In this document: positions 5,529 through 24,262 of the stretch, one piece after another
Position numbering within the stretch: the stretch's first letter is position 1
How the letters are laid out: each line of letters opens with the position of its first letter
Origin: Roseburia sp.
GTDB lineage: Bacteria > Bacillota > Clostridia > Lachnospirales > Lachnospiraceae
Length of the DNA stretch: 64,000 bases
Direction: 5' to 3'
NCBI GenBank assembly: GCA_017937095.1
Contig: JAGBEG010000013.1
Location: 186,001 to 250,000 of the forward strand
Made by a program: the position numbers and the translations under genes
The notes under the pieces: generated by a model
Database searches by the model: none
What the model saw: only the letters and a program-made list of their open reading frames with translations
What the model was told of the DNA's origin: nothing

Positions 5529-7310
5529 TTACATCGAACACGTCACACCGCCAACATAAACGCGGATTCCATTCTTATCCGTAATATACGCATCCGCATA
5601 ATATATACCAGTATGATTCTTGTGCTTTCTAATATCAGCGCTGATCTGATATGTTCCTGATGATGCCACCGCTGCATCGTACCACACCAAATCACTTTGA
5701 TCTAAAGCCGACCACACTGCTACTTTGACGCTGGCAATACCTGCCATAGACTGTACACCGTTCACCTGTACACCAAAAGTACCAGAAGTCTTATTATAGT
5801 TCACCAGCTTTACAGCGGATGCTGCTGGTGCACTTACCTTAAAGGTCGTCCCTCCAAGATATATGGACTTTCCCGCTGTACTCTGTACATATACATCCAC
5901 GTAATAGAGCCCCGATGTTTTATGATTTGCAACCGTCATATCCACTGCCCATGTACCAGGTCTCGTATTTGTTGCATTATACCAAATCAGATCATCCTGT
6001 CCCTTCTCCTGACTCCACACAGCAAAGCGAAGCGACTTTACTCCCCCTGCCATGCCTACACCCGAAGCCACAAGCGAATACTTGGTCTGATTAGAATTTG
6101 CATTTGCAACAATCTGAGCCTTTGGCACATTCATGGTTACTGTCTTGCCGCCAACATACTGCCGTATACCATTTCCGGTTGTCACATACACATCCGCATA
6201 ATATATACCATAATTGTATTTGTGATTGGAAATACTTGCCTTTGCTACATAGCTTCCATCAGTCTGCCTTGTCGCCGTATACCAATGCAAATCTGACTGA
6301 TCCGACTTGCTCCATACAGGAACTGATACGCTATCTACTCCGGACGGCGTCTTTATTCCACTTACTGTAACATCAAACCGACCAGTTCCTTCATTCTTAT
6401 TACCTATAGTAATCGTTCCGACCGTAACACCACTTATCTGGAACGTTGCTCCACCCATATATACATTCCTGCCTACTGCATTTCTCGCATAAGCATCCAC
6501 ATAATACAGTCCCCTTGTCTTGTGGTTTAAAATTTCAATATTGGCTGTCCATATTCCGTCTGATGTTTTTGTTGCGGTATACCACTTCAGATCATCTTGT
6601 CCGCTATCCTGACTCCATACCGCAAATGATATTGTTTTAATTCCGCCTGCCAGTCCCGCATTGCTGATTGTCGCAGTATATCGTGTCTCCTGTGTATTCC
6701 CAGATACCTTTATCTCTGGTTTCGGTTTATTCACAGCCACCTTAGTGCCCCCGACATACTTGCGAACACCATTTCCACTTGTGACATAAACATCCACATA
6801 GTAGCTTCCATAGTTATAGTTATGATTTGCCAGATCTACATGCGTTTTATAGCTTCCATCATTTTGTCTGGTCGCCGTATACCATATCAAATCCGATCGG
6901 TCTGACTGACTCCATACTGGCATCTGAACCTTACTGACACCCGATTTTGCAGATACTCCTGTCAATATCACATCAAATTGACCTGTTGCTTCATTCTTAT
7001 TTGTAACCTGTATGGATTTAATTGCAGTCGACGAAACCTCAAATACTGTTCCTCCTACATAGGAAACTGAGCCGCCTGCATCTGTTACATACACATCTGC
7101 ATAATAAGTTCCATCCGTCTTATGACTGGATATTGGTACATTTGCAACATAGTTACCAGATGCATTCTTCGTCGCTGTATACCATATCAGATCATCTTGT
7201 CCGCCTGCCTTACTCCACACAGCAAATCTCACGGTCTTCACGCCGCCAGGACTTACTACATTTTTTGCTGTAAGCGTATATGTCGTCTCTGTAGAATTTC
7301 CGTTTGCACT
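5529..7310 (-). repeat. Array of six GBS-Bsp-like repeats
   Basis: Six units of roughly 295 bp in alternating types inside the transglutaminase-like gene. They are close at the DNA level to the array at 15940-18655, for example in the stretch around the VWS-x-GQDDLIWY core. Confidence 0.75.
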
Positions 7311-8678
7311 GATTTCTATTCCGGCTTTTATGACCTTGCATGTCAGTTGTCCATTCGCATAAGAGACTAATAGTTCCTTATTATCCCATTTCTGCTTTGA
7401 TAACTGATATGCCACCAGATTGTAGATGACATTCTTGTAACTGTCCGGCATACTGCTTGTCACCGGAAGTGTAAACTCCGTCTTTCCAGCCGCCAGATTC
7501 TGCTTAATTGTGTCAACAAACAGATCCGACCACTGTGTTATTTGACCGGTCTTTATGAAATAATTATTCTCAAGCGCCGTTGATTCATATCCCGGTACTG
7601 CTACCTTATGATCGTCATGAACGAGGCCGATAATATAATCTGTCAAGCCGAAATACATATGCTCATAATATGTACCTTTGTAACTGGCTCCCATGTCATC
7701 CCATGTGCTGTCGATCTGATACCATTCACCATCCATTTTCACAGCAGTCCACACATGACCATTTCCTTCGATTCGCCCTGTCTCGATTCCAACCTTATTC
7801 AAAAGCTTGACATATGCCCTGTGATAAGACTCACAAGTGCCCGCGCCTCTTGCCAGCACACCTTCTGCCGAACAATAACTGTAAGAATTATCGTAATCCG
7901 CATGATCTATAATCCAGTCATGCAGCCAGAGCGCTTTTTCAAAATCTGTTGAGCATACCGCCTCACATTGTGCTGCTATATCCGTTACAATCTGCTCTAC
8001 CGACGGATAGCTTGCATCCTGTATCACAATTGGATATTCATACAGACCCGTGGTTTTCGTCTGATATGTAGTCATATCCATCACACTAAAGCGGATATAA
8101 TATGTGCCGGATGCATAAAAGGTAAACGTAAATTGGTTACTATCGCCATAAGAACCATTGGAACCATAACTAATGTCATAAACACTAACCAATTCAGAAT
8201 CCATAAGCGCAGCAATTCTATACTTATAGTTCCCGGTTCCCCCTGTAGCATTCATCGTAAATGTTATAGGCACTCCACATTTTATATCAGATGGATATGC
8301 TATGGAAAGGGCTAATGAATCATCCGCTAAAGCCACAGGCTCCTGATCAACCGTACTGTTATTATTGTACAGAGACATTGCTCCAACAGCATCTAATTGC
8401 AGTTCCCCGGAATTATGTATCGGTACATCCGCTTTCTCCGTATCTTCTGTCGATGCATCCGCTTTCTCCGTATCTTCTGTCGATGCATCCGATTCTTCCG
8501 TATCATCTGTTGGCATATCGCCGTGCACACTCTCCCCCTCCACATTCGGGATTGTTTCTGTAACTTCCTCTGTATCTTGTACATTCGCGCTTTCTCCTGC
8601 CCAAACAGGAACGGAAAACTCAGAAAACAAAATCATTATGGACAGCATCATACTTATCACGACTTTTCTAGTTTTCAT
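5529..8678 (-). CDS. Secreted transglutaminase-like protein with six GBS-Bsp-like repeats
   Basis: About 1050 residues, exported. A signal peptide ends near residue 30 (VPVWAGES). A Thr/Glu/Asp-rich linker with tandem repeats follows (residues 35-90), then a beta domain (about 120-225), then a transglutaminase-like core with Cys284 (GTCESY), His310 (GNGHVW) and Asp325 (YQIDSTWDD), the classic catalytic triad. From about residue 460 to the end there are six roughly 98-residue GBS-Bsp-like repeats, each with a VWS-x-DL-WY core. These alternate between a GGQDD type and a SDxSDL type and correspond in order to repeats 4-9 of the amidase at 15402-20237. The likely role is cell-wall or surface-protein processing or cross-linking, with the repeats binding wall or protein. 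I take ATG 8678 (GAGG upstream) rather than the GTG two codons earlier. The gene has its own promoter. Confidence 0.85.
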   Translation of the reverse strand: MKTRKVVISMMLSIMILFSEFSVPVWAGESANVQDTEEVTETIPNVEGESVHGDMPTDDTEESDASTEDTEKADASTEDTEKADVPIHNSGELQLDAVGAMSLYNNNSTVDQEPVALADDSLALSIAYPSDIKCGVPITFTMNATGGTGNYKYRIAALMDSELVSVYDISYGSNGSYGDSNQFTFTFYASGTYYIRFSVMDMTTYQTKTTGLYEYPIVIQDASYPSVEQIVTDIAAQCEAVCSTDFEKALWLHDWIIDHADYDNSYSYCSAEGVLARGAGTCESYHRAYVKLLNKVGIETGRIEGNGHVWTAVKMDGEWYQIDSTWDDMGASYKGTYYEHMYFGLTDYIIGLVHDDHKVAVPGYESTALENNYFIKTGQITQWSDLFVDTIKQNLAAGKTEFTLPVTSSMPDSYKNVIYNLVAYQLSKQKWDNKELLVSYANGQLTCKVIKAGIEISANGNSTETTYTLTAKNVVSPGGVKTVRFAVWSKAGGQDDLIWYTATKNASGNYVANVPISSHKTDGTYYADVYVTDAGGSVSYVGGTVFEVSSTAIKSIQVTNKNEATGQFDVILTGVSAKSGVSKVQMPVWSQSDRSDLIWYTATRQNDGSYKTHVDLANHNYNYGSYYVDVYVTSGNGVRKYVGGTKVAVNKPKPEIKVSGNTQETRYTATISNAGLAGGIKTISFAVWSQDSGQDDLKWYTATKTSDGIWTANIEILNHKTRGLYYVDAYARNAVGRNVYMGGATFQISGVTVGTITIGNKNEGTGRFDVTVSGIKTPSGVDSVSVPVWSKSDQSDLHWYTATRQTDGSYVAKASISNHKYNYGIYYADVYVTTGNGIRQYVGGKTVTMNVPKAQIVANANSNQTKYSLVASGVGMAGGVKSLRFAVWSQEKGQDDLIWYNATNTRPGTWAVDMTVANHKTSGLYYVDVYVQSTAGKSIYLGGTTFKVSAPAASAVKLVNYNKTSGTFGVQVNGVQSMAGIASVKVAVWSALDQSDLVWYDAAVASSGTYQISADIRKHKNHTGIYYADAYITDKNGIRVYVGGVTCSM
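8431..8520 (-). repeat. 30-bp in-frame tandem repeats
   Basis: Two identical 30-bp units (8431-8460 and 8461-8490) and a degenerate third (8491-8520) encode the acidic DTEKADASTE linker between signal peptide and catalytic domain. The unit is a multiple of three, so copy number could vary without frameshift. Confidence 0.8.
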
Positions 8679-8764
8679 ACTCACCTCACACCCTCTCTGA
8701 TTGTAACCCTATTGCCCTTTTTCTATTTTACATTTAGTGACACTGATTTCGGGAATATACTTGT

Positions 8765-8863: not shown

Positions 8864-9670
8864 TCAATCCGCCCCTACTATACTTACATTTTGTGTTTTT
8901 ACGTCAATAACTACCCGAGTTGGATTATACTTCTTATATTTTCCCGAGTGTATCCGCTCCTCAATTCTCATTACATTTTCTTCTACGTTCGAAATGTCAA
9001 TCCCCACCAGAATATCAGGACCATAATCCCACCATTTCATTTCCAAGAGCTTCTCCACACATGTATCTGTAAATCTCTGCTTAATTACTCTGGCCGGGTT
9101 ACCGCCTACGATTGTGTATGCCGGAACATCTTTTGTAACTACTGCTCCCGCTGCAACAACTGCTCCATCCCCAACCGTAACGCCATTCAAAATGGTTGCT
9201 CCAAACCCAATCCACACATCATTTCCAATAACCGGAAGTGGTTTTCTCGACGATTCCAAGTTCTTGATCTTCATCTCGTTTTCCCATGCGTAATCTCGGT
9301 TCTCTATATATTCTGCAAAAAATTGTGCGTTCTGGTTAAATTTAAAAATCGTATTTGGACTCAAAAAGCTCGCGGAGTGCCCTGCCATTCCAATATTGAC
9401 AGAATGTGCAATCGTACAAAATCTTCCGATACTTTCACACTCTACACAGCAATTCGTTGTATAACTCTTTACCGCACGCATATTAATAAACGAAAAGGCT
9501 CCCATATACCTCAAGTCTATTTGGCATCTGCCTAAATAGACAGGCGCTTCAATCGTAATCTCATCAAACATTCCCCATGTTCCGATTTGTGGAGACTCAG
9601 ATACCCTGATTAGGTCATTACCCCCCCCCCCATTTACATGCGTCGTTACATTTTCTTTGAGTTCAAGCAT
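8864..9670 (-). CDS. Hexapeptide-repeat O-acetyltransferase with a G11 tract near its start
   Basis: 268 residues. The left-handed beta-helix signature is clear at residues 165-205: [26 protein letters not shown], and [13 protein letters not shown], the pattern of CatB/xenobiotic-type acetyltransferases that use acetyl-CoA. It most likely O- or N-acetylates a sugar of the surface glycan in the cytoplasm. Start ATG 9670 follows GAGAGGT. Codons 13-17 contain eleven consecutive G residues encoding VNGGGGND; loss or gain of one base would stop translation within a few dozen codons. A restart at Met33 (GMFDEI) is possible. It is the last gene of the leftmost glycan unit, followed at once by a terminator. 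Confidence 0.8.
9621..9631 (-). repeat. Homopolymer C11 (G11 on coding strand), candidate phase-variation tract
   Basis: Eleven consecutive C on the + strand, inside codons 13-17 of the acetyltransferase. It is the longest G/C homopolymer I see in the window and is otherwise out of place in AT-leaning DNA. In this sequence the gene is in frame (on). Confidence 0.85.
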
Positions 9671-9732: not shown

Positions 9733-10800
9733 CTACATCGGCATATCTCCTATCGGCGAATTATTAATTTTATCCACATACTCCATACCAACGCTAACAC
9801 ATTCACACTTACCCTCAAACGCTGCAATCGTACTGGAATACAAATTCAGTGCCTTGCTAATATTAAGGTTCGTTGCAAATGCCAGTACCTCTGCTGTCAC
9901 CAAAGGATCAACGCTTATGCTATCAGGGAAAATTTTTGTATAGTCCGTCTTATCACGCGGATGTGCCTTAATCAATAATTGGCACTCCTTATCCCCATAA
10001 TTCTGCACCAGAGATTTCCAACACCATTCCATCTTTTCCTGCGTAGAAATCAAACCATCCTCTAATAACGGAGCTGTCAGCAAAACATTCGTCTTTGTTT
10101 CCATCTGCAATGGTATATCATATGCAGTAGCATACAATTCAAATATTCTGTTCTTCATATCATCCGTTAATTCCCGAACCTTTTCGTCCACATTCCAGAC
10201 TCTGATGTTTCTGCCCTTCAAATAACTCACAAGGTTCTTTTTTTCACTGACTTCTATTGCGGATACATATTTAGAACATCCGCTGTAAGCTACTATAATA
10301 TTTAATCGGTCTAAAATAATAGATATCCTGACAGCTAATTTGTGCAATGGCATATTTAACTGAAAATTGTTCCGTGCATGCTCACTTACAATGTAGTGAA
10401 TCTTATCAAAATTCAACCGAAGATTGATGGTGGACACGCCATCAATAGCATATATTTCATCATACTTCGAAAAATCCAATCCGTCCGGTAATTTTTCCCG
10501 CGCTGCCATCTTGTGGTACGTGCGATAGCGTCCCATTTTTTTAGGCCAGGAGATTAAGATCTTAGGGAACTTAACATAATCGCTCAAATGTTCATCTTTA
10601 ACATAGTCCTGATATAGCTTGTCATCATAGAAAAATACTGTTCGAAACAAATTCGAATCACGAAGCGCCTGTTCCATCTTTTCCATTCCAGGCATATGAT
10701 TCGATAATACAATATCCATCTCATCTTCTTTATTCAGCATTGCTCTTATTATCGTCTTATAGAGCATATATGGTCTTTCACATATAAACAGTTTCTTCAT
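9733..10800 (-). CDS. GT52-like glycosyltransferase (sialyltransferase-type)
   Basis: 355 residues. The start KKLFICERPYMLYKTIIRAM is the usual opening of GT52 enzymes, where a beta strand is followed by a tP-ql-like turn. The later LLIKAHPRDKTDY matches the family KxHPRD motif, and the final part (NLNISKALNLYSSTIAAFEG) fits the C-terminal donor-site region. Known GT52 members transfer CMP-sialic acid or related sugars. Here there is no NeuA/NeuB, but a KdsB-type CMP-sugar synthetase lies two genes upstream, so a CMP-activated ulosonic acid is the likely donor. Cytoplasmic, 58 bases after the aldolase gene. The start lacks a strong ribosome site (GCGAGAAA). Confidence 0.65.
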   Translation of the reverse strand: MKKLFICERPYMLYKTIIRAMLNKEDEMDIVLSNHMPGMEKMEQALRDSNLFRTVFFYDDKLYQDYVKDEHLSDYVKFPKILISWPKKMGRYRTYHKMAAREKLPDGLDFSKYDEIYAIDGVSTINLRLNFDKIHYIVSEHARNNFQLNMPLHKLAVRISIILDRLNIIVAYSGCSKYVSAIEVSEKKNLVSYLKGRNIRVWNVDEKVRELTDDMKNRIFELYATAYDIPLQMETKTNVLLTAPLLEDGLISTQEKMEWCWKSLVQNYGDKECQLLIKAHPRDKTDYTKIFPDSISVDPLVTAEVLAFATNLNISKALNLYSSTIAAFEGKCECVSVGMEYVDKINNSPIGDMPM

Positions 10801-10858
10801 AAAACATTTCTCGCTTTCCCGTTAATACTCTCCCTGCCGCACTCCAAAATAAACTTAA

Positions 10859-12439
10859 TTACTGGGCAAACTTACTTTCTGTAATAAAATGAATAGCCAT
10901 CTTTTGTGAATACTCCCTGATGAGTAACTCCATGCCACGGTTTCTTGCATCTAATATGATATTACTTGCCATCAGAGACATATCTTCTATGGCATAGTTG
11001 CTCTTTGCCATATGAGAATATCCATCAATTCCTGCAATATATACTTCCTTTGCACCAAGATTTTTTAATAATTGAATCAACATAAGCCCGGCATTATCTC
11101 TCACCTCGTCTATGTTATTCAGTAAAGAGGCATACCGTACTTTCATATACCCTGTCTCTGTAGGTATATTAGACGTAAAAATACACTTCTCCCGTACCGC
11201 CTCATCCAACTCACTATAGCGTCGCAGATTGCTGACAAAGATATAATCCGTATCCACTGCATCATACTCAAAGTTTACACTGATAATAATCGGCTTCTTT
11301 TCTTCTGCAAAACGAACAACCTTCTCTTTTTCATCCACCACACTCTTTCCCGGTCCGATTATAAGAATTGTCCGTTGCAAGATCTCCTCTCTAAATTCAT
11401 TCAGATGTTCTTCATAACACTTTCCGTTTTCCATGAATTTATAATAGAGATCCTTAATAAATGCTTTGTCATAACCATCCCTTTTTTCTTCCGGCATCAT
11501 TGCAAAAATTTCATCAATATCCTCGATGCGCAATGTCTGCTTATCCACAAGGTAGTTCGCATAATTAGGATGCACATTATGCTTAGCGGATAAGTAATTA
11601 GGTATAGAATATCCCCAGCTATTTTCCTGATAAAACGCGTTCAATACCTGATCGATTACTCGCAGGATCGGATTTAGTATATATGTCTTCCCCTCAGTCT
11701 CATTCAAATACTCTGTCAACAATTCGGTATTTAAATTTCCTGCGCCTCTGCCCATTCCATAAATACTTGAATCGATAATCAATTCCCGTAGTGTTTTCAC
11801 CGAAGTCAGTGCTTTTGCATTTGAATATGCAAGCTGCATATTGTTGTGAGAGTGAAATCCTATCTTGATACCGCTGTCCAGCCTGTTTTCTACAATATAG
11901 AACAATCGAAGCAGATCACGCTCTTTCATACCACCGAAGCTGTCTACGATATAAAATGCGTACGGCTTGATTTCATTTGCGCATCGGATCAGTTCTATAA
12001 ATTCCTCATCCGAATAATTTAAAGAGACCATCGGCTGCATGAACACCTTATATCCCTTTTCTGAAATTTTCCTGCAAAATTCTACTGCTGCTTTCAGATC
12101 CTTTTTATGAAAGGCCACTCTTATACCATCAACTGCATTCTCACTGCTTGCCCCGATTTTTTCAATGGAATATTCACCATAGTTGATCATGCAGACAAAA
12201 AGTCTTCCCGCTTTATCTTTCGGAATCACCTCTGATATTGCCTCTAAGGACTGAAACTTGGTACTGTCCTGGTCTGCCTCTACCTCTTCTGTCACAAAAC
12301 CGCATTCAATAATATCAATATTCGCTTCTACCAATGCCCTGATGATTTTGCGGATATTATCATGTCCGAACTTCCAGTTATTGCAATATCCCCCATCCCG
12401 CAATGTACAATCCAATATCTTGATATCTGCTATATGCAT
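10859..12439 (-). CDS. HMGL/DmpG-type aldolase fused to a C-terminal DUF115/MptE-like domain
   Basis: 526 residues. Residues 1-250 form an HMGL-like TIM barrel: LDCTLRDGG at 9-17 carries the catalytic Arg14 and metal-binding Asp10, and GFHSHNN at 194-200 gives the metal ligands His196 and His198. Such enzymes add or remove pyruvate or an acetyl unit; the DmpG branch makes 4-hydroxy-2-oxo acids. Residues 350-526 are a separate domain opening with ILIIGPGKSV (358-367) and later IISVN and FVSNLRR, reminiscent of the DUF115/MptE-like fold also found in Maf glycosyltransferases. The family is often annotated just as aldolase domain protein. Between KdsB and a GT52-like gene, it probably builds a 3-deoxy-ulosonic acid from pyruvate and a sugar aldehyde. 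The barrel is certain; the C-terminal assignment and substrate are inferences. Confidence 0.7.
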   Translation of the reverse strand: MHIADIKILDCTLRDGGYCNNWKFGHDNIRKIIRALVEANIDIIECGFVTEEVEADQDSTKFQSLEAISEVIPKDKAGRLFVCMINYGEYSIEKIGASSENAVDGIRVAFHKKDLKAAVEFCRKISEKGYKVFMQPMVSLNYSDEEFIELIRCANEIKPYAFYIVDSFGGMKERDLLRLFYIVENRLDSGIKIGFHSHNNMQLAYSNAKALTSVKTLRELIIDSSIYGMGRGAGNLNTELLTEYLNETEGKTYILNPILRVIDQVLNAFYQENSWGYSIPNYLSAKHNVHPNYANYLVDKQTLRIEDIDEIFAMMPEEKRDGYDKAFIKDLYYKFMENGKCYEEHLNEFREEILQRTILIIGPGKSVVDEKEKVVRFAEEKKPIIISVNFEYDAVDTDYIFVSNLRRYSELDEAVREKCIFTSNIPTETGYMKVRYASLLNNIDEVRDNAGLMLIQLLKNLGAKEVYIAGIDGYSHMAKSNYAIEDMSLMASNIILDARNRGMELLIREYSQKMAIHFITESKFAQ

Positions 12440-12472
12440 CTTCCGAGTCCCTTTCTAATTTACGCACAAATC

Positions 12473-13228
12473 TTATATTGTCCCTGCCTTTTTCCTATCC
12501 TCTACAATCTTGCGTACTTTTTCCAGATCATTTGGAGTATCTACTGCAACCGTATCTGAATCCACTTCAATATACTGTACTTTATAGCCGTTCTCTATAA
12601 ATCTTAATATCTCAATGTCCTCTATGCTTTCAATCTTGGCTTTTCCGTATGTCTGACCATACTCACAATAAAACTGCAACGCCTCTGGTTTGAATCCATA
12701 TACGCACACCTGCTTGTAATATGCATAATCAATACTGCCCTTTGGATATGGCGCTGTGGAACGGGTCAGGTAGATTCCTATTCCCTCTTTATTCGTGATG
12801 ACCTTTGGCACCGTAAAGTTTACAACCTCTACCGGATCTTTGATCTTAGTCATCAAATTTGTGATCTGCAGTGTATCATTCTCAAGAAACGGCAATATCG
12901 CAGCACGGATTGTCTCCGGCTCTAATAGAGGCTCATCTCCCTGAATATTCACATACAAATCAGCTTCTATCTTTCTTGCAACCTCTCCGATCCGGTCTGT
13001 GCCGGTCTTATGCTGATCGGACGTCATTACGACGTTAATCCCATTCTGCTTGCAGGCTTCCTCTATCTTTACGTCGTCTGTTGCAACATAGACTTCATCT
13101 AACTCCTTTACCTTCAAGCACTGGTTATACACCCACCAGATCATGGGCTTTCCGCAGATATCTGCCAACGGCTTCCCCGGAAATCTCGAACTCTTGTATC
13201 TTGCGGGTATTACTCCTATTATTTTCAT
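12473..13228 (-). CDS. kdsB: KdsB-like CMP-ulosonate cytidylyltransferase
   Basis: 251 residues, the normal KdsB length. IPARYKSSRFPGKPLADI at residues 6-23 is the CTP-binding loop, VNIQGDEPLLEP near 93 holds the metal-binding Asp, and the end (SDTVAVDTPNDLEKVRKI) matches KdsB closely. Known KdsB transfers CMP from CTP to Kdo. In this Gram-positive context there is no LPS and no KdsA, KdsC or KdsD in the window. The substrate is therefore probably another 3-deoxy-ulosonic acid made by the adjacent aldolase and used by the GT52-like enzyme. Start ATG 13228 with GGAGG 10 nt upstream. Confidence 0.85.
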   Translation of the reverse strand: MKIIGVIPARYKSSRFPGKPLADICGKPMIWWVYNQCLKVKELDEVYVATDDVKIEEACKQNGINVVMTSDQHKTGTDRIGEVARKIEADLYVNIQGDEPLLEPETIRAAILPFLENDTLQITNLMTKIKDPVEVVNFTVPKVITNKEGIGIYLTRSTAPYPKGSIDYAYYKQVCVYGFKPEALQFYCEYGQTYGKAKIESIEDIEILRFIENGYKVQYIEVDSDTVAVDTPNDLEKVRKIVEDRKKAGTI

Positions 13229-13249: not shown

Positions 13250-14284
13250 TTATACCTTCTGTAATGTTATAAAGCACGTCTTTACAAACCACGAAAAATT
13301 ACAGAACATTGACTTTATGATCCTTGCGCCAAGCTTAAATAATATAGCCGCCTTGCTCTTATACCCAAAAATCTTCATATCTTTTTCAGTATACCCCAGT
13401 GTGTACATTGTCTGCTTTTCCTCTTCGTCCGGCTTATTTAAATATGCCATTGCCGCCAGAAATATCCCATTATAATGCCTTCGCACAATTCCCTTCAAAG
13501 CTTCTACAATCTTTGGGTTATCCTCAAAAACTCCGGTTATCGCCAAGAACCCTTTATAGTCCATGAAAATGCGCTGCTTCAAGTTCTCATAGAATCCATC
13601 GTTTCCGAATCTGGATAATGCTATGCACTCCCGGATGCACATCATTTTTCCTTTACCTTTTAACATAGAAAGATACTGTGCTACCTGCACATAAATCGTT
13701 CCTATATATTTTTCGCAATATGCCCGCTGTGCATCCCACTCTTCTTTCTTCACTACGAGAGAGGTCAGATATCCCAGACTCGTAGTCGAATTTAGCTTGC
13801 CAAAATACTGCACCACCTGATCTTCATTTGAGAAATCAACGATAAAACTCCGGTTCTCTTTCGTCCATCTGTCCTTCATAAACGGTTTTAAGTTTTTATT
13901 GCAGATAATTCTATTTCCCCAGAACACGGAAATATCCGGATTCGCTTTGACATAAGACAATACTACATCGATTGCACCTTCTGCAATACCGTCATCGTCC
14001 CCTGCCAACCAGCAATAATCTGCATTTGCAATTTCGACTGCTCTTAAAAAATTCGCGTCTGCGCCGCAGTTCTTATCTGCCCGACTATAAATAAACTCCA
14101 CATCCACAGATTTCATATATTCAATAACACATTCATAACTCTCCTCTGATGCATTATCGCTTACACATATCTGTACGTCATTCTTATTCGCCCCGTTCAA
14201 CTGACCGTTAACTGTCTTTAACAGTTCCAATAAATATTGCGGTCGATTATAAGAGGGTATACAAATCGCCAATGTCTTTCTCAT
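13250..14284 (-). CDS. GT2 glycosyltransferase, abequosyltransferase-like
   Basis: 344 residues. It starts LAICIPSYNRPQYL and has a Rossmann-like GT-A core with DNAS near residue 43 and the acidic metal site GDDDG near residue 95. Its general layout is like RfbV-type abequosyltransferases, which use CDP-3,6-dideoxyhexoses. This fits the CDP-dideoxyhexose genes upstream in the same unit, but the donor cannot be proved from sequence. ATG 14284 is chosen because GGAGG lies five bases ahead of it; the frame is open four codons further. It follows the DUF2304 gene by 20 bases. Confidence 0.75.
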   Translation of the reverse strand: MRKTLAICIPSYNRPQYLLELLKTVNGQLNGANKNDVQICVSDNASEESYECVIEYMKSVDVEFIYSRADKNCGADANFLRAVEIANADYCWLAGDDDGIAEGAIDVVLSYVKANPDISVFWGNRIICNKNLKPFMKDRWTKENRSFIVDFSNEDQVVQYFGKLNSTTSLGYLTSLVVKKEEWDAQRAYCEKYIGTIYVQVAQYLSMLKGKGKMMCIRECIALSRFGNDGFYENLKQRIFMDYKGFLAITGVFEDNPKIVEALKGIVRRHYNGIFLAAMAYLNKPDEEEKQTMYTLGYTEKDMKIFGYKSKAAILFKLGARIIKSMFCNFSWFVKTCFITLQKV

Positions 14285-14304
14285 AGTTTCCTCCAACAGA
14301 GCAC

Positions 14305-14646
14305 CTACTCTTCTGCATCTTCATAATTCTTCAATGCAACTTCTCCCGCCAGTTCCTTCACTCTGCTTTCCAGTTTTGATACCTTAATTGACAGCAAAAA
14401 CAACTGAACCAGCAGCAAAAATATAACTGCAAGGAACACAAAATTGACCGTGGTTGCAATTTGCAATACATCTGCCATAAAGAAAGCGATCTGTGGAAAA
14501 AGAGCTATGATAATCAAAATGATTGAAAAAATAATCCAAAAGCCCATGTCTACAATCTGTGCCTGGGATTTTCGAATCTTTCGAATAATATACCGAAATG
14601 TTCCAAGCGCAACCAGCACCAGAATTACGCGCAATAGTACACTCAT
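14305..14646 (-). CDS. DUF2304 membrane protein
   Basis: 113 residues with three membrane helices (about 3-20, 33-55, 63-87) and a charged C-terminal tail, the size and layout of DUF2304 proteins. These are usually encoded directly after a dolichyl-phosphate-mannose-synthase-like GT2, as here (one base between the two genes). They are thought to help that enzyme make or present a polyprenyl-phosphate sugar. The ribosome site AGGAGG lies within the last codons of the preceding gene, so the two are translationally linked. Confidence 0.8.
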   Translation of the reverse strand: MSVLLRVILVLVALGTFRYIIRKIRKSQAQIVDMGFWIIFSIILIIIALFPQIAFFMADVLQIATTVNFVFLAVIFLLLVQLFLLSIKVSKLESRVKELAGEVALKNYEDAEE

Positions 14647-14647
14647 G

Positions 14648-15340
14648 TTATCTCTTCCTCCTAAACCACTGTATGAATACTAACGACATACAGATATTCA
14701 TCATATATCGAATCGAGTTTCCGAAGTTCAGATAGCTGACCCCAGCTTGTCTCTCCCGCATTTTAACCTCTACTTCTTCTACACGAAATCCTTGACGAAT
14801 CAGAAGTGCTATTGTATCCGGCTCCGGCGCCATATTTATCTCGTTTGCCAAAAACTTCATAACATTTGCATTGTACAACCGCATTCCCGATGTCGGATCA
14901 CTGATCCGTTTCCCTGTCGTAAGCTTTATCAATGCCTGAATAATATAACTTCCAACGTTTCTGAGCGATTTACAGCCCTTTTCCTCTACAAATCTTGATC
15001 CGATAACAACATCTGCATTGGTCTGCTTCATTTTCTCTACCATGCATGCAATGTAATGTGGATCATGTTGTCCGTCACCATCATACTGAAGTGCCATGGA
15101 ATACCCGTGCCTGACCGCATATTTCATTCCTGTCCTAAACACGTCTGCCAAACCTACATTTATTGGCATATCCACGTAATTATATCCCTTTTCTTCACAG
15201 ATTGCTTTGGTATTGTCCTTAGAACCATCATTAATAATAACATAGTCATATACATTGTCCAGTTGTTGCAGTTCTTCAATCACCCATGGTATGTTTTCCG
15301 CCTCATTATATGCCGGTATAATCAATAATATCTTTTCCAT
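14648..15340 (-). CDS. GT2 polyprenyl-phosphate sugar synthase (DPM1-like)
   Basis: 230 residues. IIPAYNEAENIP at 7-18, INDGSKDNT near 36 and YDGDGQHDP near 89 are the hallmarks of the dolichyl-phosphate mannose synthase group of GT2, and SDPTSGMRLYN follows. It likely loads a sugar from a nucleotide donor onto undecaprenyl phosphate at the inner membrane face for later transfer by a GT-C enzyme. Paired with the DUF2304 gene. Preceded by its own promoter (15373-15401), so it starts a subunit that runs to the terminator at 8804. Confidence 0.85.
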   Translation of the reverse strand: MEKILLIIPAYNEAENIPWVIEELQQLDNVYDYVIINDGSKDNTKAICEEKGYNYVDMPINVGLADVFRTGMKYAVRHGYSMALQYDGDGQHDPHYIACMVEKMKQTNADVVIGSRFVEEKGCKSLRNVGSYIIQALIKLTTGKRISDPTSGMRLYNANVMKFLANEINMAPEPDTIALLIRQGFRVEEVEVKMRERQAGVSYLNFGNSIRYMMNICMSLVFIQWFRRKR

Positions 15341-15401: not shown

Positions 15402-18400
15402 CTAGAACGCTTTTAAATTGTTTACCATTCTCACAATATCGTAACCATAATTTTTCGCCGTCGCCCAGCCCTTACCATAAGGATTCTCCTGAATTCCCAA
15501 CCATTCTACATATGGCGCGGAATTTCTGGTCACGTACCCGAACCGCGTGTCTACGCACGCCTGGTTCAGTGGCTGCGTACAACCGTACGCTTTCAGGTGC
15601 TGCACCTGCGCCCGGATTCCGGTTCTGACATTCGGATAACTCTCACCCGGCACTCCCGGTCCGGTACTTCCAAGTCCTGCAAAGTTAAACTGCGTAATGC
15701 TGACATTTCCGCCAAACTTTAAAAATCCTGTCTCCTTCATCGCCTGGCAAAAAGCCACCTCTGCCTTCACACCCTCCGCCTGACACTCTTCCAGATAAAT
15801 CTTACAAAATGCTTCAATCGTCGGTGCGTCCGTATTCGCATAATAGGATGGATAGTAAGCAGATGCTTTATAATAATCTGCCATCTGTTTTACAGTAACA
15901 GAAGTCGAGCCCATAATCGGGTGATAAATGCCTGTAACATTTATCATCGAACATGTCACCCCGCCTACATATCTCTGTATACTGTTCTTGTCTGTAATAT
16001 AAGCATCCGCATAATATGTTCCAGTATTATTCTGATGATTTCTAACATCGGCCCCCACCTGATAGGTTCCCGATGAAACTGTTGTTGCATCATACCATAC
16101 AAGATCGCTGTGGTCTGACGAAGACCATACTGCTACTCTAACACTGGCAATCCCTGCTGCCGATTGTACGCCGGCAACCTGTACACCGAAAGTACCATCT
16201 GCCTCATTGTAATTCACCAGCTTTACGGAAGAAGCTGTCGGCCCGTTTACCGTAAAGGTTGTCCCTCCAAGATAAATGGAGCTTCCCGCCGCGCTCTGTA
16301 CATATGTGTCCACATAATAAAGACCTGCCGTCTTGTGGTTCGCAACCGTCATATCTACTGCCCATGTACCAGGTGCCGTATTTGTGGCATTATACCATAT
16401 AAGATCATCCTGTCCATTTACCTGGCTCCACACAGCAAAACGAACAGATTTCACGCCTCCTGCCACGCCCACACTCGACGCTACAAGAGAATATTTTGTC
16501 TGACTGGAATTTGCAGTTGCAGTAACCTTCGCTCTTGGCACACTCATGGTTACCGTCTTACCGCCTACATACTGCCGTATGCCATTTCCGGTAATCACGT
16601 ACACATCTGCATAATATGTACCATAATTATAGTTATGATTTGAAATACTTACATTCGCCACATAACTTCCGTTTGACTGTTTCGTCGCAGTATACCAGTG
16701 CAAATCCGACTTATCAGACCGACTCCATACCGGAATTGAAACGCTGCTTACTCCAGACGGCGTATTTATTCCACTTACCGTGACATCAAAGCGTCCGCTT
16801 CCTTCATCTTTATTGCCTATATTGATCGTGCTAATCGTAACTCCGCCTACTGTAAATGTTGCTCCACCCATATAGACATTCGCGCCCGCTGCATTTCTCG
16901 CATAGGCATCTACATAATACAGACCACTTGTTTTGTGATTCGCAATCGCAATCTCTGCTGTCCATACTCCGCCCGATGATTTCGTTGCACTATACCACCT
17001 TAAATCATCCTTACCACCGCTGTTACTCCAGACAGCGAACGACATTGACTTAATTCCGCCTGCAAGTCCGGCATTGCTTATTGTCGCAGTATATCTTGTT
17101 TCCTGCGCATTTCCTGACACCTTTATCACAGGCTTTGGCTTATTCATAGCCACTCTGGTTCCGCCCACATATTTGCGAACGCCATTTCCGCTGGTAACAT
17201 AGGCATCTACATAATAATTTGCATAATTGTAATTATGATTTGCTAAATCAACCTTTGCCTTATAACTTCCGTCACTTTGTCTGGTCGCTGTATACCAATA
17301 CAAATCTGACTTGTTCGACTGACTCCACACCGGAATCTGCACCTGACTAACACCTGACTTTGCAGATACTCCAGTCAGTATTACATCAAATTGACCTGTT
17401 CCTTCATTCTTATTCGCAATCTGTATAGATCCAATCACGGTCGACGAAACAGTAAATATCGTTCCTCCCGCATAAGCAGCCGTCCCGCTTGCGTCCGTCA
17501 CGTACACATCTGCATAATATGTTCCATCTGTCTTATGATTCGAAATCGGCACATTAACAGTCCATCCTGCTAATGCCGTAGCATTTGCATTATACCAAAT
17601 CAAATCATCTTTACCACCTGCTGCGCTCCAGACAGCCACTCTCACCTTTTGAGGTTTTCCTGCCATTCTTAATTGCGGAATACTGATGGTGTAATTTGTC
17701 TCATTGCTGTTTGCAGTTGCTGTTACAGTCGTCTTTGGAAAGCTCATATTCACGGTCTTACCACCCAGATATCTGCGAACACCGTTTCCAGCAGTTCCGT
17801 ATACATCTACATAATAATTCGCATATGCATACCCATGCTTCGCTATATCAATATGGGCCACATAACTTCCGTCTGACTGCTTTTCAGCAAGATACCAGTA
17901 CATATCAGACTTATCGGATTTACTCCATACTGGTACCTGTACTCTCCAAACACCTGACGCAGAGGATATTCCACTGACAACAACATCAAACTGACCTTTT
18001 TCATAATCCGTATTTTTTATAGTAATGGCAGAAACGGAAATATCATCTACCTGGAAGACTGCCCCTCCTATATATCTGTTCACACCATTTACATCAACCG
18101 CATAAGCATCTGCATAATATGTACCCGAGGTCTGATGATTCACAATTGGTACGCTGGCAGTATACTTTCCGGAAGCATCCTTAGTCGCAGTATACCAAAT
18201 CAGATCATCCTGTCCGCCAGTTTTACTCCACACAGCAAACTTTACATTCTTTACCCCGCCGGGTACCACAACATTCGCTGCCGAAACTGTATACGTTGTC
18301 TGCGCAGCATTCCCTGATGCAACAACGGTAGCCTTTACCGTAGAAAATGTACATGTACTGCCGCCAATATAATGACTCTTTCCATATATATCATACGCAT

Positions 18401-20237
18401 ATGCATCTACATAATACATTCCGACATTATAGCGATGCTTACTGATATTCAAAGTAGTCTGATATGTTCCTGTACCGTTATTTGCCACATCGTACCATGC
18501 TAAATCGCTGTGATCTGATTTTGACCAGACCGCAAAAGATACTTTGCTGATCTTATCAGAAGGTCCAACACTGGAAACACTCATAGTAGCCGTTCCGGTA
18601 CTGTTGTTCAAATTGCTAACCTTCACCGCCCCGGCAGTGACCGTTATATTCTCAACCTTCGATAGACCATAATAAGATGCAATCGCTGTCGCATCTGCCA
18701 CACCTAGCATCTTTAACTTGTCATCGCTGATCAGAAAATTATTCACATCATCTATGTTCGTTACAAACGCATGCTCAACGATAATCGCTGGTATACCATT
18801 CAGCTTGCTATTACGAATGACTCCATAATAATCTGCTGCCGAACCATCCGGGTACTTATCCTGCTGAGCATCTTTTATCTGAATTCCCCGATTGTATAAC
18901 CCCAATGCAACAAGATGGTTCTCAATTTCCTGCGCCAGGCCCTGTCCAACCGTGCTCACCCATGGATTGTAATTCGAATTCGGGTAAAATACCATCGCTC
19001 CATGAGCGGAACTGGACGCAGAATTATTGTGCAGGCTGACATAAACATCCGCTCCCACACTCTTGGCAAACGCTACACGATTCTCGTTACATCCTCCGGA
19101 AGTTGTTCCCGGATACGGACAGCTTCCATCCGTCGGTCTTGTAAGATAAACCGTAACCCCATGATACTGTTCCAGTTCTTCCTTACAGTATAACGCAATT
19201 TTGAGGTTTAGCGTCTCCTCTCCCAGTCCGTTCGCCTGTGCCCCTGCATGTGTCTTATCATGTCCCGGATCAAGTACTACGACAATGTTACCTGCCTTCG
19301 CACTGTCAGCCGAATATGCAGCTATTCCATCCTCGTCATCCAGACTCAGCGTCGCTATCTGCTGCTCAATACTGGCGTTACTGATTGCCTCCTCCAGTGA
19401 AGTCTCAGAAATCGTGTTACCGTCTTCGTCAATTCTGACAACGTCCATATCTACATTGGCAGATTCGTCTGTCGTGCCATCGTCGATCACTGCATCCGGT
19501 GTCGTCTCTACTTCCTGATTCACACCAAATACCGCCTCTATACCAGCCTCTGAAAAAAATTCGGTATAAGACTCTCCGTCTACTTTAAACGTAACGGAAT
19601 CAAGCTGATATACACCTGTCTGGCTTTCGTCTGAAAAAAGCATTTCAAAGAGGAGCGCATTGTCTACGACTTCCTTATAATACTGTTGAAACACCTCACC
19701 CGTAGCCTGATTATGATACTGCAGAATACCTTCCTCAATCGTCTTATCACATCCGATTCCAAGAACTACCTGCTGTGCTGTCCCCAAAGCAACATTGCTC
19801 TCGTTTACCATCAGGTATTCAATCAAGTACTCTTCTTCTGCTTCCTCTGTCTCCGTTTCTTCTTCCAGAGACTCTGTTCCAAGCTCATTCGCCTGCGGCT
19901 TCTTGACAGGAGTTGCACTCTCTTCCGTGCTCTCTGTCTTCTCCGTACTCTCTGTACTCTCTGTGCTCTCCGTACTCTCTGTGCTGTCTGTCTTCTCTGT
20001 ACTCTCTGTGCTCTCCGTACTCTCTGTGCTGTCTGTCTTCTCTGTACTCTCTGTCTTCTCCGTACTCTCTAACTTCTCCGTGCCGTTCGTCTTCTCAGTA
20101 CTTTCCGTTGTTTCCACAATTTCTGTTTCCAGAATTTTCTGTTCTCCATTTGCTGCTAATACTGCATCATCTGGAATTGCCGTCAGCAGGGTTATCACTG
20201 ACATTACCATTGCTAAAACTCTTTTTGTTCTTCTCAT
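15402..20237 (-). CDS. Secreted bifunctional autolysin: amidase_3, nine GBS-Bsp-like repeats, glucosaminidase
   Basis: About 1611 residues, exported. A signal peptide (MRRTKRVLAMVMSV to LAAN) is followed by a Ser/Thr/Glu-rich low-complexity linker of STEKTE type repeats. The N-acetylmuramoyl-L-alanine amidase core comes next: VVLDPGHD (Zn His), GLGEETLN (Zn Glu), VSLHNNS (Zn His) and IIVEHAFV (catalytic Glu). Nine GBS-Bsp-like repeats follow, and the protein ends with a mannosyl-glycoprotein endo-beta-N-acetylglucosaminidase domain (AMKETGFLKFGG with catalytic Glu, QFNFAGLG). It should cut peptidoglycan at both peptide stem and glycan chain. I prefer ATG 20237 because it gives a clean signal peptide; an upstream in-frame ATG at 20261 has no ribosome site. 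The gene sits inside the glycan operon, suggesting coupled wall turnover. Confidence 0.9.
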   Translation of the reverse strand: MRRTKRVLAMVMSVITLLTAIPDDAVLAANGEQKILETEIVETTESTEKTNGTEKLESTEKTESTEKTDSTESTESTESTEKTDSTESTESTESTESTEKTESTEESATPVKKPQANELGTESLEEETETEEAEEEYLIEYLMVNESNVALGTAQQVVLGIGCDKTIEEGILQYHNQATGEVFQQYYKEVVDNALLFEMLFSDESQTGVYQLDSVTFKVDGESYTEFFSEAGIEAVFGVNQEVETTPDAVIDDGTTDESANVDMDVVRIDEDGNTISETSLEEAISNASIEQQIATLSLDDEDGIAAYSADSAKAGNIVVVLDPGHDKTHAGAQANGLGEETLNLKIALYCKEELEQYHGVTVYLTRPTDGSCPYPGTTSGGCNENRVAFAKSVGADVYVSLHNNSASSSAHGAMVFYPNSNYNPWVSTVGQGLAQEIENHLVALGLYNRGIQIKDAQQDKYPDGSAADYYGVIRNSKLNGIPAIIVEHAFVTNIDDVNNFLISDDKLKMLGVADATAIASYYGLSKVENITVTAGAVKVSNLNNSTGTATMSVSSVGPSDKISKVSFAVWSKSDHSDLAWYDVANNGTGTYQTTLNISKHRYNVGMYYVDAYAYDIYGKSHYIGGSTCTFSTVKATVVASGNAAQTTYTVSAANVVVPGGVKNVKFAVWSKTGGQDDLIWYTATKDASGKYTASVPIVNHQTSGTYYADAYAVDVNGVNRYIGGAVFQVDDISVSAITIKNTDYEKGQFDVVVSGISSASGVWRVQVPVWSKSDKSDMYWYLAEKQSDGSYVAHIDIAKHGYAYANYYVDVYGTAGNGVRRYLGGKTVNMSFPKTTVTATANSNETNYTISIPQLRMAGKPQKVRVAVWSAAGGKDDLIWYNANATALAGWTVNVPISNHKTDGTYYADVYVTDASGTAAYAGGTIFTVSSTVIGSIQIANKNEGTGQFDVILTGVSAKSGVSQVQIPVWSQSNKSDLYWYTATRQSDGSYKAKVDLANHNYNYANYYVDAYVTSGNGVRKYVGGTRVAMNKPKPVIKVSGNAQETRYTATISNAGLAGGIKSMSFAVWSNSGGKDDLRWYSATKSSGGVWTAEIAIANHKTSGLYYVDAYARNAAGANVYMGGATFTVGGVTISTINIGNKDEGSGRFDVTVSGINTPSGVSSVSIPVWSRSDKSDLHWYTATKQSNGSYVANVSISNHNYNYGTYYADVYVITGNGIRQYVGGKTVTMSVPRAKVTATANSSQTKYSLVASSVGVAGGVKSVRFAVWSQVNGQDDLIWYNATNTAPGTWAVDMTVANHKTAGLYYVDTYVQSAAGSSIYLGGTTFTVNGPTASSVKLVNYNEADGTFGVQVAGVQSAAGIASVRVAVWSSSDHSDLVWYDATTVSSGTYQVGADVRNHQNNTGTYYADAYITDKNSIQRYVGGVTCSMINVTGIYHPIMGSTSVTVKQMADYYKASAYYPSYYANTDAPTIEAFCKIYLEECQAEGVKAEVAFCQAMKETGFLKFGGNVSITQFNFAGLGSTGPGVPGESYPNVRTGIRAQVQHLKAYGCTQPLNQACVDTRFGYVTRNSAPYVEWLGIQENPYGKGWATAKNYGYDIVRMVNNLKAF
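15940..18655 (-). repeat. Array of nine GBS-Bsp-like repeats
   Basis: Nine units of about 300 bp, alternating between GQDD-type and SDxSDL-type. The last six parallel the six units of the transglutaminase-like gene in order and type. Confidence 0.75.
19951..20040 (-). repeat. 45-bp in-frame tandem repeat in the linker
   Basis: Two 45-bp units (19951-19995 and 19996-20040) encode 15 residues each of a Ser-Thr-Glu repeat. Shorter versions of the motif extend on both sides, to about 19920 and 20110. Length variation would be silent for the reading frame. Confidence 0.75.
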
Positions 20238-20293
20238 AAGTTCCCGCCATTCCTTTTGCATAAACCAATCGTCACTTCAATTTCCGCCGTTCT

Positions 20294-21400
20294 CTATTCT
20301 ACCAACCATTTTCCAGTGTTGCCACAGGAAATCCCTGTTAATCTCCTATTCGCCCCGCTAAATTCCTCAATCTGCTCATCCATACACTTTTCCACATCAC
20401 CGCCAGCTATATAAACCTTTGTCCACTCTACCACCTTCTCAATTGCCGTCTTCGCACTCCAACGCGGTTTCCATCCAAATGTACTCTTTAATTTAGAGCA
20501 ATCCAATTTCAAGAAATTCGCTTCGTGAGGTCCGCCGTCATACTGATTGATCCAGCGTGCATCGCCTCCCCACTTCTCGCAAAAACAATCGACCAACTCT
20601 CCTGTTGTAAGGCAGTCCGCTTCATCCGGTCCAACATTATAAAAGCCCGCATATTTTCCATCCTCGTACTGCTTCTGAGCAATCATCAAATACGCGAACA
20701 GCGGTTCCAATACATGCTGATACGGTCTTGTCGAATAAGGATTCCGAACAATGATCTCTTTTCCTGCTTCCATGGCTCTCACACAGTCAGGAATAATACG
20801 GTTAGCGGCAAAATCTCCGCCTCCTATTACATTCCCGGCACGCGCTGTCGATACAGCAACGCCCATATCCCCAAAAAAAGAATTGATATAGCTGTGTGTT
20901 ACCAGCTCTGAGCATGACTTACTGTTAGAATATGGATCATAGCCATCTAACGGCTCATTTTCCCGGTAGCCCCACTCCCACTCATTATTCTTGTACACCT
21001 TATCCGTTGTCACATTGAGGAAAGACTTCACACATGTATTATTTCTGACACACTCACAGATATTTACCGTGCCCATGACGTTCGTCTCATAAGTATATCT
21101 CGGGTCTTCATAAGAGTCGCGTACGAGAGGCTGCGCTGCCAGATGAAGCACTATCTCCGGCTGTGCCTCCGCAAAAACCTTTGATAAATGCTCATAATCG
21201 CGGATATCACCGATAACAGAGTTCATCTTCTCCTCCACTCCACACACAGAAAAAAGATTCGGCATTGTAGGCGGCTCTAACGCGTAGCCCGTCACCTCCG
21301 CCCCTGCATTCACCAGAATCCGGCATAGCCAGGAACCCTTGAATCCGGTATGTCCGGTAATCAATACTTTTCTCCCTTTATAAAAACTCATATCCATCAT
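20294..21400 (-). CDS. rfbG: CDP-glucose 4,6-dehydratase
   Basis: About 368 residues. An extended SDR starting FYKGRKVLITGHTGFKGSWL (NAD-binding GxxGFxG), with VTTDKVYKNNEW near residue 125 and the RAGNVIGGGDF motif that is characteristic of RfbG/DdhB. It converts CDP-glucose to CDP-4-keto-6-deoxyglucose, the second step of 3,6-dideoxyhexose synthesis. The frame opens at 21442 inside the epimerase gene, but only the Met cluster at 21391-21400 gives the usual N-terminus, so I place the start there. Unusually, it is the last pathway gene in transcription order rather than following rfbF. Confidence 0.9.
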   Translation of the reverse strand: MMDMSFYKGRKVLITGHTGFKGSWLCRILVNAGAEVTGYALEPPTMPNLFSVCGVEEKMNSVIGDIRDYEHLSKVFAEAQPEIVLHLAAQPLVRDSYEDPRYTYETNVMGTVNICECVRNNTCVKSFLNVTTDKVYKNNEWEWGYRENEPLDGYDPYSNSKSCSELVTHSYINSFFGDMGVAVSTARAGNVIGGGDFAANRIIPDCVRAMEAGKEIIVRNPYSTRPYQHVLEPLFAYLMIAQKQYEDGKYAGFYNVGPDEADCLTTGELVDCFCEKWGGDARWINQYDGGPHEANFLKLDCSKLKSTFGWKPRWSAKTAIEKVVEWTKVYIAGGDVEKCMDEQIEEFSGANRRLTGISCGNTGKWLVE

Positions 21401-21422
21401 GCTTTCCACTCTTTCCCGATTC

Positions 21423-22893: not shown

Positions 22894-22907
22894 TTTGCCT
22901 CCATCCG

Positions 22908-24248: not shown

Positions 24249-24262
24249 TTTCTTTTCTCCTT

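Follow-up and report, generated by a model that had tools for sequence, protein, structure and literature searches.

Introduction

Two described systems lie closest to the one considered here: the KdsD-KdsA-KdsC-KdsB pathway to the cytidine monophosphate (CMP) ester of 3-deoxy-D-manno-octulosonic acid (Kdo), and the NeuB/NeuA pathways of sialic, pseudaminic and legionaminic acid. KdsA and NeuB are commonly used as genome markers for Kdo and for sialic-acid-like sugars. Our subject is a run of genes in a stretch of 64,000 nucleotides from Roseburia sp. (positions 186,001 to 250,000 of contig JAGBEG010000013.1, hereafter the window), carried by contig C10 of a 3.9 Mb genome, in which a gene for an HMGL/DmpG-type aldolase fused to a further domain stands between genes for a KdsB-family CMP-sugar synthetase and a GT52-like glycosyltransferase. 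We consider it likely that a metal-dependent pyruvate aldolase here replaces KdsA and NeuB, that KdsB activates its product and that the GT52-like enzyme transfers it.

With the CMP-Kdo pathway the locus shares a KdsB-family synthetase and a place among genes for surface polysaccharide; its relatives often carry a phosphatase, and one of them (L081, below) keeps KdsD. It departs from that pathway in that the first carbon-carbon bond would be made by an HMGL-fold aldolase, not by KdsA, which is phosphoenolpyruvate (PEP)-dependent; in that its own genome lacks KdsA, and KdsD over cut-off; in the altered sugar motifs of KdsB; and in the phosphatase linked in relatives, which has been recognised as a PGP-like HAD_2 protein but not as KdsC. 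In the NeuB/NeuA pathways, as here, a CTP_transf_3 enzyme makes the CMP ester and GT52-type transferases use the ulosonic acid, whereas NeuB in the present genome lies outside the locus and is without a full match in 13 of 22 carriers.

The 4-hydroxy-2-oxovalerate aldolases DmpG and MhpE, and the solved structure 3dxi, belong to the same HMGL family as the window aldolase, which keeps their R-D and HxH residues and is expected to share their pyruvate-enolate chemistry; it differs in being of RDGGY type, in its extra Maf-like domain, in falling far under the DmpG equivalog cut-off and in its occurrence in polysaccharide loci. NanA (N-acetylneuraminate lyase) and Kdo aldolase catalyse a reversible aldol reaction of pyruvate and an aldose that gives an ulosonic acid; NanA is a Schiff-base class I enzyme serving breakdown, whereas the window enzyme has the metal-type fold and is placed for synthesis. 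Finally, sister loci carry an acetolactate-synthase-like thiamine diphosphate (ThDP) enzyme, often with RfbG and RfbH, a context by which this enzyme is probably like the branched-sugar ligases YerE and ErwE; the product of these ligases is a 4-C-branched CDP-sugar, not a CMP-sugar, and no such enzyme was matched in the window.

Results

KdsB lies near the aldolase, often in genomes without KdsA or NeuB

The sequence-only reading that drew attention to this DNA named three consecutive genes at 9733..13228, for an HMGL/DmpG-type aldolase fusion, a KdsB-type CMP-sugar synthetase and a GT52-like transferase. The genes are there as described, three complete open reading frames (ORFs) on the minus strand with spacers of 58 and 33 bp, and each of the three assignments was borne out by family profiles.

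The synthetase passes three family-level KdsB profiles (NF009905, 300 bits against a cut-off of 255; TIGR00466, 165 against 155.2; NF003952, 273 against 193) and falls under two stricter ones, the NF003950 subfamily (219 against 234) and the NF003948 equivalog (180 against 281). CMP-Kdo synthetases are its best matches among solved structures, led by 1gq9 at 6.6e-51. We looked for its relatives in 299 genomes of the family, our own included, counting as strong KdsBs those with more than 190 bits to NF009905, and as aldolase matches those with E<=1e-20, a count that takes in short single-domain paralogues (roughly half of the matches listed). Aldolase matches occur in 124 of the 299 genomes, strong KdsBs in 27 and KdsA over cut-off in seven. 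When the coordinates were compared by hand, 22 of the 27 strong KdsBs proved to have an aldolase match no more than 7 kb away, 16 of them as a direct neighbour with about 12-106 bp between the matched segments. Three stand beside KdsA (G116, G184 and G264). The remaining two stand beside neither; a related aldolase lies about 16 kb from that of G129:C60, and that of G236 is near a contig end.

Thirteen of the 22 aldolase-linked genomes, with completeness of 84-100%, lack KdsA over cut-off and likewise a full NeuB match (G021, G028, G090, G093, G105, G126, G141, G158, G179, G194, G201, G204 and G222). NeuB is present in the other nine, among them G052, the only genome of the 22 to carry KdsA as well. 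KdsD over cut-off is found in none of the 22; in the 28 genomes searched it occurs in six (G116, G184, G264, G292, G103 and G022), which are all the KdsA-bearing genomes except G052. Weak matches to NeuB (E about 1e-6 to 1e-12, above the low cut-off of Pfam) were taken as absence of NeuB, a judgement made in the 299 genomes by E-value alone; in ten named genomes such matches coincide with weak KdsA matches on ORFs mostly of 340-370 amino acids (aa), which we take to be 3-deoxy-D-arabino-heptulosonate 7-phosphate (DAHP) synthases. The distance matrices of aldolase and KdsB are correlated (r 0.66, reached in 0 of 2000 permutations, 45 pairs), a value that includes the kinship of the species.

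The Roseburia genome itself gives no match to KdsA (TIGR01362), for which the E. coli control was positive, and its best KdsD match reaches 27 bits against a cut-off of 203.7. It does contain one NeuB, on contig C24 (PF03102, 227 bits). The supposition that both KdsA and NeuB are absent thus stands for KdsA only; and of the genes whose presence elsewhere in the genome had been named as telling against the route, NeuB was found and KdsA, or KdsD over cut-off, was not.

This NeuB opens a different explanation, that KdsB activates the nonulosonic acid made by the C24 enzyme and that the aldolase is an unrelated member of the same polysaccharide locus. In its favour, the CMP-synthetase partner of NeuB is not in view: CMP-synthetase profiles match nothing, even at E 0.01, in 19 kb around NeuB. 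The C24 NeuB is not linked to the KdsB locus. Against this explanation, the window synthetase is of the KdsB family, not NeuA or PseF. About 5.5 kb separate NeuB from a Maf/MptE-like protein (C24 31571-38379, L072), and glycosyltransferase-like (DUF3880/GT) genes and a CDP-glycerol transferase-like gene are next to NeuB; the nearby Maf-type protein makes this region likely to be a flagellin-glycosylation locus. Moreover, KdsBs of the same clade as the window's (10 rows, support 99/100) occur in G021 (83% identical), in G126 and in the isolate Proteocatella sphenisci, all without KdsA over cut-off or a full NeuB match. We regard this explanation as unlikely.

The sugar site of KdsB

For Kdo enzymes the KdsB motifs are printed as QGDEP, FSR and RHIGVYAYR in PMC7717453. 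The window KdsB retains the nucleotide motif (NIQGDEP), while its sugar-site motifs are altered, FSR to LTR and RHxGxYxYR to KQVCVYGFK. FSR and (K/R)H-x-G-x-Y, or close variants, are retained in the E. coli enzyme and in three KdsA-linked KdsBs; other aldolase-linked subgroups combine NGDEP with KHLGV, KYVGV or KFVGV.

A tree of 54 KdsBs (near-duplicate rows were taken out before this and the aldolase tree) places the KdsA-linked rows, E. coli among them, in a single clade (support 99/94), and the window KdsB in the separate group already mentioned. Four aldolase-linked KdsBs (L053, L065, L192 and L193) branch with the KdsA-linked clade (100/99); the first three have near-canonical motifs and may activate Kdo. 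Since the sugar-site motifs differ, the product in the window is probably not Kdo, and with KdsD missing from the genome as well we lowered Kdo as a candidate. Most aldolase-linked KdsBs, the window's included, would by this comparison activate something else.

An aldolase in the place of KdsA

KdsD exceeds its cut-off in nine of the 299 genomes. Six of these KdsDs are beside or near KdsA, two are elsewhere (G250, about 15 kb from a ThDP-class aldolase, and G269), and one, in G153, is beside an aldolase. This last locus, L081 (7319-10108), reads PseF-like CMP synthetase, single-domain aldolase, KdsD. Its KdsD scores 308 bits to TIGR00393 (cut-off 203.7) and is 60% and 64% identical to the KdsDs of L185 and L186, where the order is CMP synthetase, KdsA, KdsD: in L081 the aldolase holds the slot of KdsA. 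No KdsA over cut-off was found in G153. Of all single observations, L081 argues most clearly that an aldolase of this kind can substitute for KdsA.

Two kinds of partner

The 40 best aldolase matches and the window make up 41 family loci. Within five genes of the aldolase, 22 of them have a CMP synthetase, 17 a ThDP enzyme, one both and one neither, a near-exclusive choice (2e-9, with kinship among loci not corrected for). By profile family the ThDP partners are acetolactate-synthase-like, often accompanied by RfbG and RfbH. In a set of 80 named loci, labels were given to 77; L141, L146 and L155 were left out, having no aldolase ORF after the overlap filter. Ranked by similarity to the window and hence biased in their proportions to the CMP class, the 77 comprise 51 with a CMP synthetase (two with short aldolase ORFs), one with both partners, 15 with a ThDP enzyme and 10 with neither; under a tighter overlap filter, which alone reveals the CMP synthetase of L097, the counts are 55, one, 15 and six. 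A quick tree of 118 aldolases, 105 of them single-class, needs six class changes. A PGP-like HAD phosphatase lies near the aldolase in seven of 23 CMP-bearing family loci (the one with both partners included) and in 10 of the 17 with a ThDP enzyme only, which fits a phosphorylated aldol acceptor.

According to a review (PMC12247030), the donors that ErwE joins to CDP-4-keto-3,6-dideoxyglucose are preferably 4-hydroxy-2-oxo acids, and pyruvate is not among them. Donors of this preferred kind are the expected products of a pyruvate aldolase. That the ThDP partners are ErwE/YerE-like is inferred from locus context, not from sequence likeness. Both types of partner use 2-oxo acids, in keeping with an aldolase whose product is a 4-hydroxy-2-oxo (3-deoxy) acid.

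The same evidence bears on a second alternative. Here a small 4-hydroxy-2-oxo acid from the aldolase would serve to decorate or branch some other sugar, as proposed for the ThDP loci, and the aldolase would be tied to KdsB only by the polysaccharide to which both contribute. The 17 ThDP-partnered family loci lend this some colour, as does the presence in the window of RfbG and RfbH, for CDP-3,6-dideoxyhexoses. Against it, no ThDP enzyme of acetolactate-synthase-like type was matched in the window, the two partners nearly exclude each other, and KdsB would have no known substrate in the 13 of 22 genomes that lack KdsA and NeuB. This alternative seems to us improbable, slightly more so than activation of the NeuB product.

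Several sister loci (L047, L050, L069, L088 and others) combine the aldolase fusion, an HAD phosphatase, an acetolactate-synthase-like ThDP enzyme and a short-chain dehydrogenase/reductase (SDR) with RfbG and RfbH; this set has the look of a hitherto unrecognised pathway by which Gram-positives make long-branched CDP-sugars. A contig of Gastranaerophilales (L116:49-6367) carries in one run KdsB, KdsB, CMP synthetase, aldolase fusion, CMP synthetase and aldolase fusion, an arrangement suggestive of two ulosonic acids being made in parallel.

CMP-class loci are widespread. They occur in records titled Bacillota (including Bacillus, Gottfriedia and Paenibacillus), Bacteroidota and Gastranaerophilales, and in metagenome-assembled genomes, whose bins can be wrong, of Fusobacterium, Succinivibrionaceae and Thermoplasmata. 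The annotated aldolase, KdsB and an HAD hydrolase are consecutive in all three Leisingera plasmids opened. Of ten named isolates examined that have an aldolase-CMP locus, nine are without KdsA over cut-off, and eight without both KdsA and full NeuB, the exceptions being Polaribacter porphyrae (KdsA and NeuB) and Gottfriedia acidiceleris (NeuB). Proteocatella sphenisci DSM 23131, Niameybacter massiliensis and Flavonifractor sp. An82 are cultured carriers without either gene.

The aldolase and its tail

The aldolase half of the fusion matches the Pfam HMGL-like family (PF00682) at 1.2e-20 over residues 6-247, with 74.4 bits against a cut-off of 29. Its closest solved relative is the 'putative aldolase' 3dxi (1.1e-31), followed by DmpG-type 4-hydroxy-2-oxovalerate aldolases; a profile of 32 homologues finds the same order, 3dxi at 2e-46 and then DmpG-type aldolases at 1.6e-26. 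It misses the cut-off of the DmpG equivalog TIGR03217 (89 bits against 286). R14, D15, H196, H198 and W275-G276-Y277 are invariant across the 32 aligned homologues. The R-D and HxH residues have roles in the metal site of DmpG, and the conservation of R14, D15, H196 and H198 is consistent with a metal-bound pyruvate enolate. Weak matches to LeuA and to homocitrate and citramalate synthases might suggest instead an acyl-CoA condensing enzyme of Claisen type, a family member akin to citramalate or homocitrate synthase with no connection to sugar acids, but the profile is far closer to DmpG aldolases than to homocitrate and isopropylmalate synthases (about 1e-12) and the gene is placed repeatedly beside CMP synthetases, which makes this the least probable explanation.

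The genome has a second, single-domain HMGL-like aldolase, about 30% identical to the first (contig C8, 21124-21999, L073); neither a CMP synthetase nor a ThDP partner is present in the stretch fetched around it. A search of a phage collection gave two weak matches only.

The C-terminal tail had been called DUF115/MptE-like and taken to strengthen the link, since such domains also occur in Maf proteins that handle nonulosonic acids. For the window tail itself there is no match to MptE-like (PF01973) at E<=1, and the gathering score is not reached; five of the 32 homologues of the fusion do match (best E 0.0088), and a tail profile set against 12 MptE-like domains gives a probability of 72% (E 3.4e-5, 125 columns), with two control profiles at 0.5% and 0.3%. 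A search of solved structures with the tail yielded nothing useful (best E 0.22). The tail is, on these profiles, a distant relative of Maf/MptE-like domains and not a clear member, so the family likeness survives in weakened form. The link drawn from it does not: full-length fusions beside ThDP enzymes carry the same tail, which therefore gives no connection to CMP-sugars of its own. For the same reason a role as a CMP-sugar transferase of GT42-like kind is unsupported.

The GT52-like transferase

The transferase matches Glyco_transf_52 (46 bits, cut-off 26.1) and the polysialyltransferase family PF07388 (30 bits, cut-off 23.3), and shows by eye what we take to be the HP and SST motifs; a search of solved structures gave no match at E<=1. 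In 50 genomes the GT52 profile finds 12 matches, nine of them above the Pfam cut-off. Six belong to aldolase-CMP loci (G000, the present genome, G016:C1, G243, G194, G296 and G028, of which G296 and G028 do not reach the cut-off). Four (G156, G213, G264 and the sub-threshold G293) have NeuB at a distance of about 5 kb or less. For the other two, G016:C19, which a contig end truncates, and G208:C14, the fetched stretches show neither an aldolase-CMP locus nor NeuB nearby. Among 20 genomes added as ThDP-class or unclassified, no GT52 match shares a contig with the listed aldolase matches. We presume from this distribution that the enzyme uses a CMP-ulosonate.

The gene run and its surroundings

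The three genes belong to a run of seven collinear genes on the minus strand, from 15340 to 8864, with intergenic gaps of <=62 bp, in the order GT2, DUF2304, GT2, KdsB, aldolase fusion, GT52-like and hexapeptide acyltransferase (Table 1). The last is a possible O-acetyltransferase. The run is flanked by two long proteins: that at 5529-8684 carries six stretches of GBS_Bsp-like repeats together with a transglutaminase core, and that at 15402-20261 has, judged by eye, similar repeats and an amidase-like start. A set of genes for a CDP-3,6-dideoxyhexose follows at 20294-25045, and the polysaccharide of the locus probably also bears a dideoxy sugar.

Table 1. Positions of the gene run and of the dideoxyhexose genes in the window
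Feature	Position	Strand	Basis
GT2, resembles polyprenyl-phosphate-sugar synthases (below their cut-offs); first of run	14648..15340	-	profile matches
DUF2304 protein, same run	14305..14646	-	profile match
GT2 glycosyltransferase, same run	13250..14296	-	profile match
KdsB-family CMP-ulosonate synthetase (CTP:ulosonate cytidylyltransferase), 251 aa	12473..13228	-	profiles, structures, motifs, tree
Aldolase fusion, whole ORF, 526 aa	10859..12439	-	ORF
Fusion, N-terminal part (about aa 1-330): HMGL-like aldolase, RDGGY type	11450..12439	-	profiles, alignment
Fusion, C-terminal part (aa 350-526): domain distantly related to Maf/MptE-like	10862..11392	-	profile-profile comparison
GT52-like (bacterial sialyltransferase-type) glycosyltransferase, 355 aa, presumed CMP-ulosonate user	9733..10800	-	profiles
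Hexapeptide acyltransferase, last of run; resembles CatB/Vat-fold enzymes, under every NCBIfam cut-off shown	8864..9670	-	profiles
RfbG	20294-21442		profile match
RmlC-like epimerase	21423-21983		profile match
SDR	21973-22893		profile match
RfbH	22908-24248		profile match
RfbF-like nucleotidyltransferase	24263-25045		assigned by eye and from gene order

Discussion

A critical issue is the reaction that the aldolase performs. We infer the reaction, its acceptor and product, and the order of steps as follows, leaving aside any role that the Maf-like tail may play. The aldolase, a divalent-metal enzyme of DmpG type, would add the enolate of pyruvate to an aldose; in many relatives the acceptor is probably an aldose phosphate, because an HAD phosphatase is often near the aldolase. 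The aldol product would be a 2-keto-3-deoxy (ulosonic) acid, formed in place of synthesis by PEP-dependent KdsA or NeuB. KdsB would couple the free ulosonic acid with CTP to give the CMP-ulosonic acid, and the GT52-like enzyme would move the ulosonic acid from CMP onto a polysaccharide of the cell surface. The Roseburia product is likely to be an ulosonic acid other than Kdo. The class of end product and the last two steps are already known; the first step would be new.

Several observations weigh against this route. The Roseburia genome has a NeuB, and so has G153, the genome of L081, with full matches elsewhere than at that locus; the aldolase of L081 is without the Maf-like tail and, over 335 residues, shares only 33% identity with that of the window. 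Apart from the KdsD of L081, no acceptor-making gene was repeatedly seen beside an aldolase-CMP pair. The window yielded no HAD phosphatase of the type linked in relatives, which leaves dephosphorylation uncovered there. Ten of the 77 labelled named loci show no partner of either kind, and the prevalence of CMP partners among the rest partly reflects the ranking by which they were chosen. Finally, draft genomes make single absences soft; the 13 genomes together are hard to explain by incompleteness.

On balance a KdsA-independent route to a CMP-ulosonic acid appears well supported by the comparative evidence. The proposal that the aldolase feeds KdsB without KdsA draws on their linkage, on the absence of KdsA, KdsD and NeuB from many carriers and on L081; it is qualified by the NeuB of this genome and by a product that is probably not Kdo.

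We also lean, with less assurance, towards a broader proposal: that HMGL-fold, metal-dependent pyruvate aldolases of several phyla constitute a second bacterial entry route, replacing KdsA and NeuB and, with a KdsB- or PseF-like synthetase and often an HAD phosphatase, making CMP-ulosonic acids other than Kdo and sialic acid, while also feeding 4-hydroxy-2-oxo acids to ErwE-like ThDP ligases for branched CDP-sugars. No title or abstract opening in the literature covered, which takes in few subscription papers and preprints, presents an HMGL-type aldolase as an ulosonate synthase.

If the route is real, many Gram-positive and gut bacteria would escape surveys based on KdsA and NeuB, and KdsB matches in Gram-positive genomes would cease to be orphans. 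The aldolases themselves would be new carbon-carbon bond catalysts, leading from pyruvate to ulosonic acids. The eight named isolates that carry the pair without KdsA over cut-off and full NeuB make the proposal directly testable by sugar analysis.

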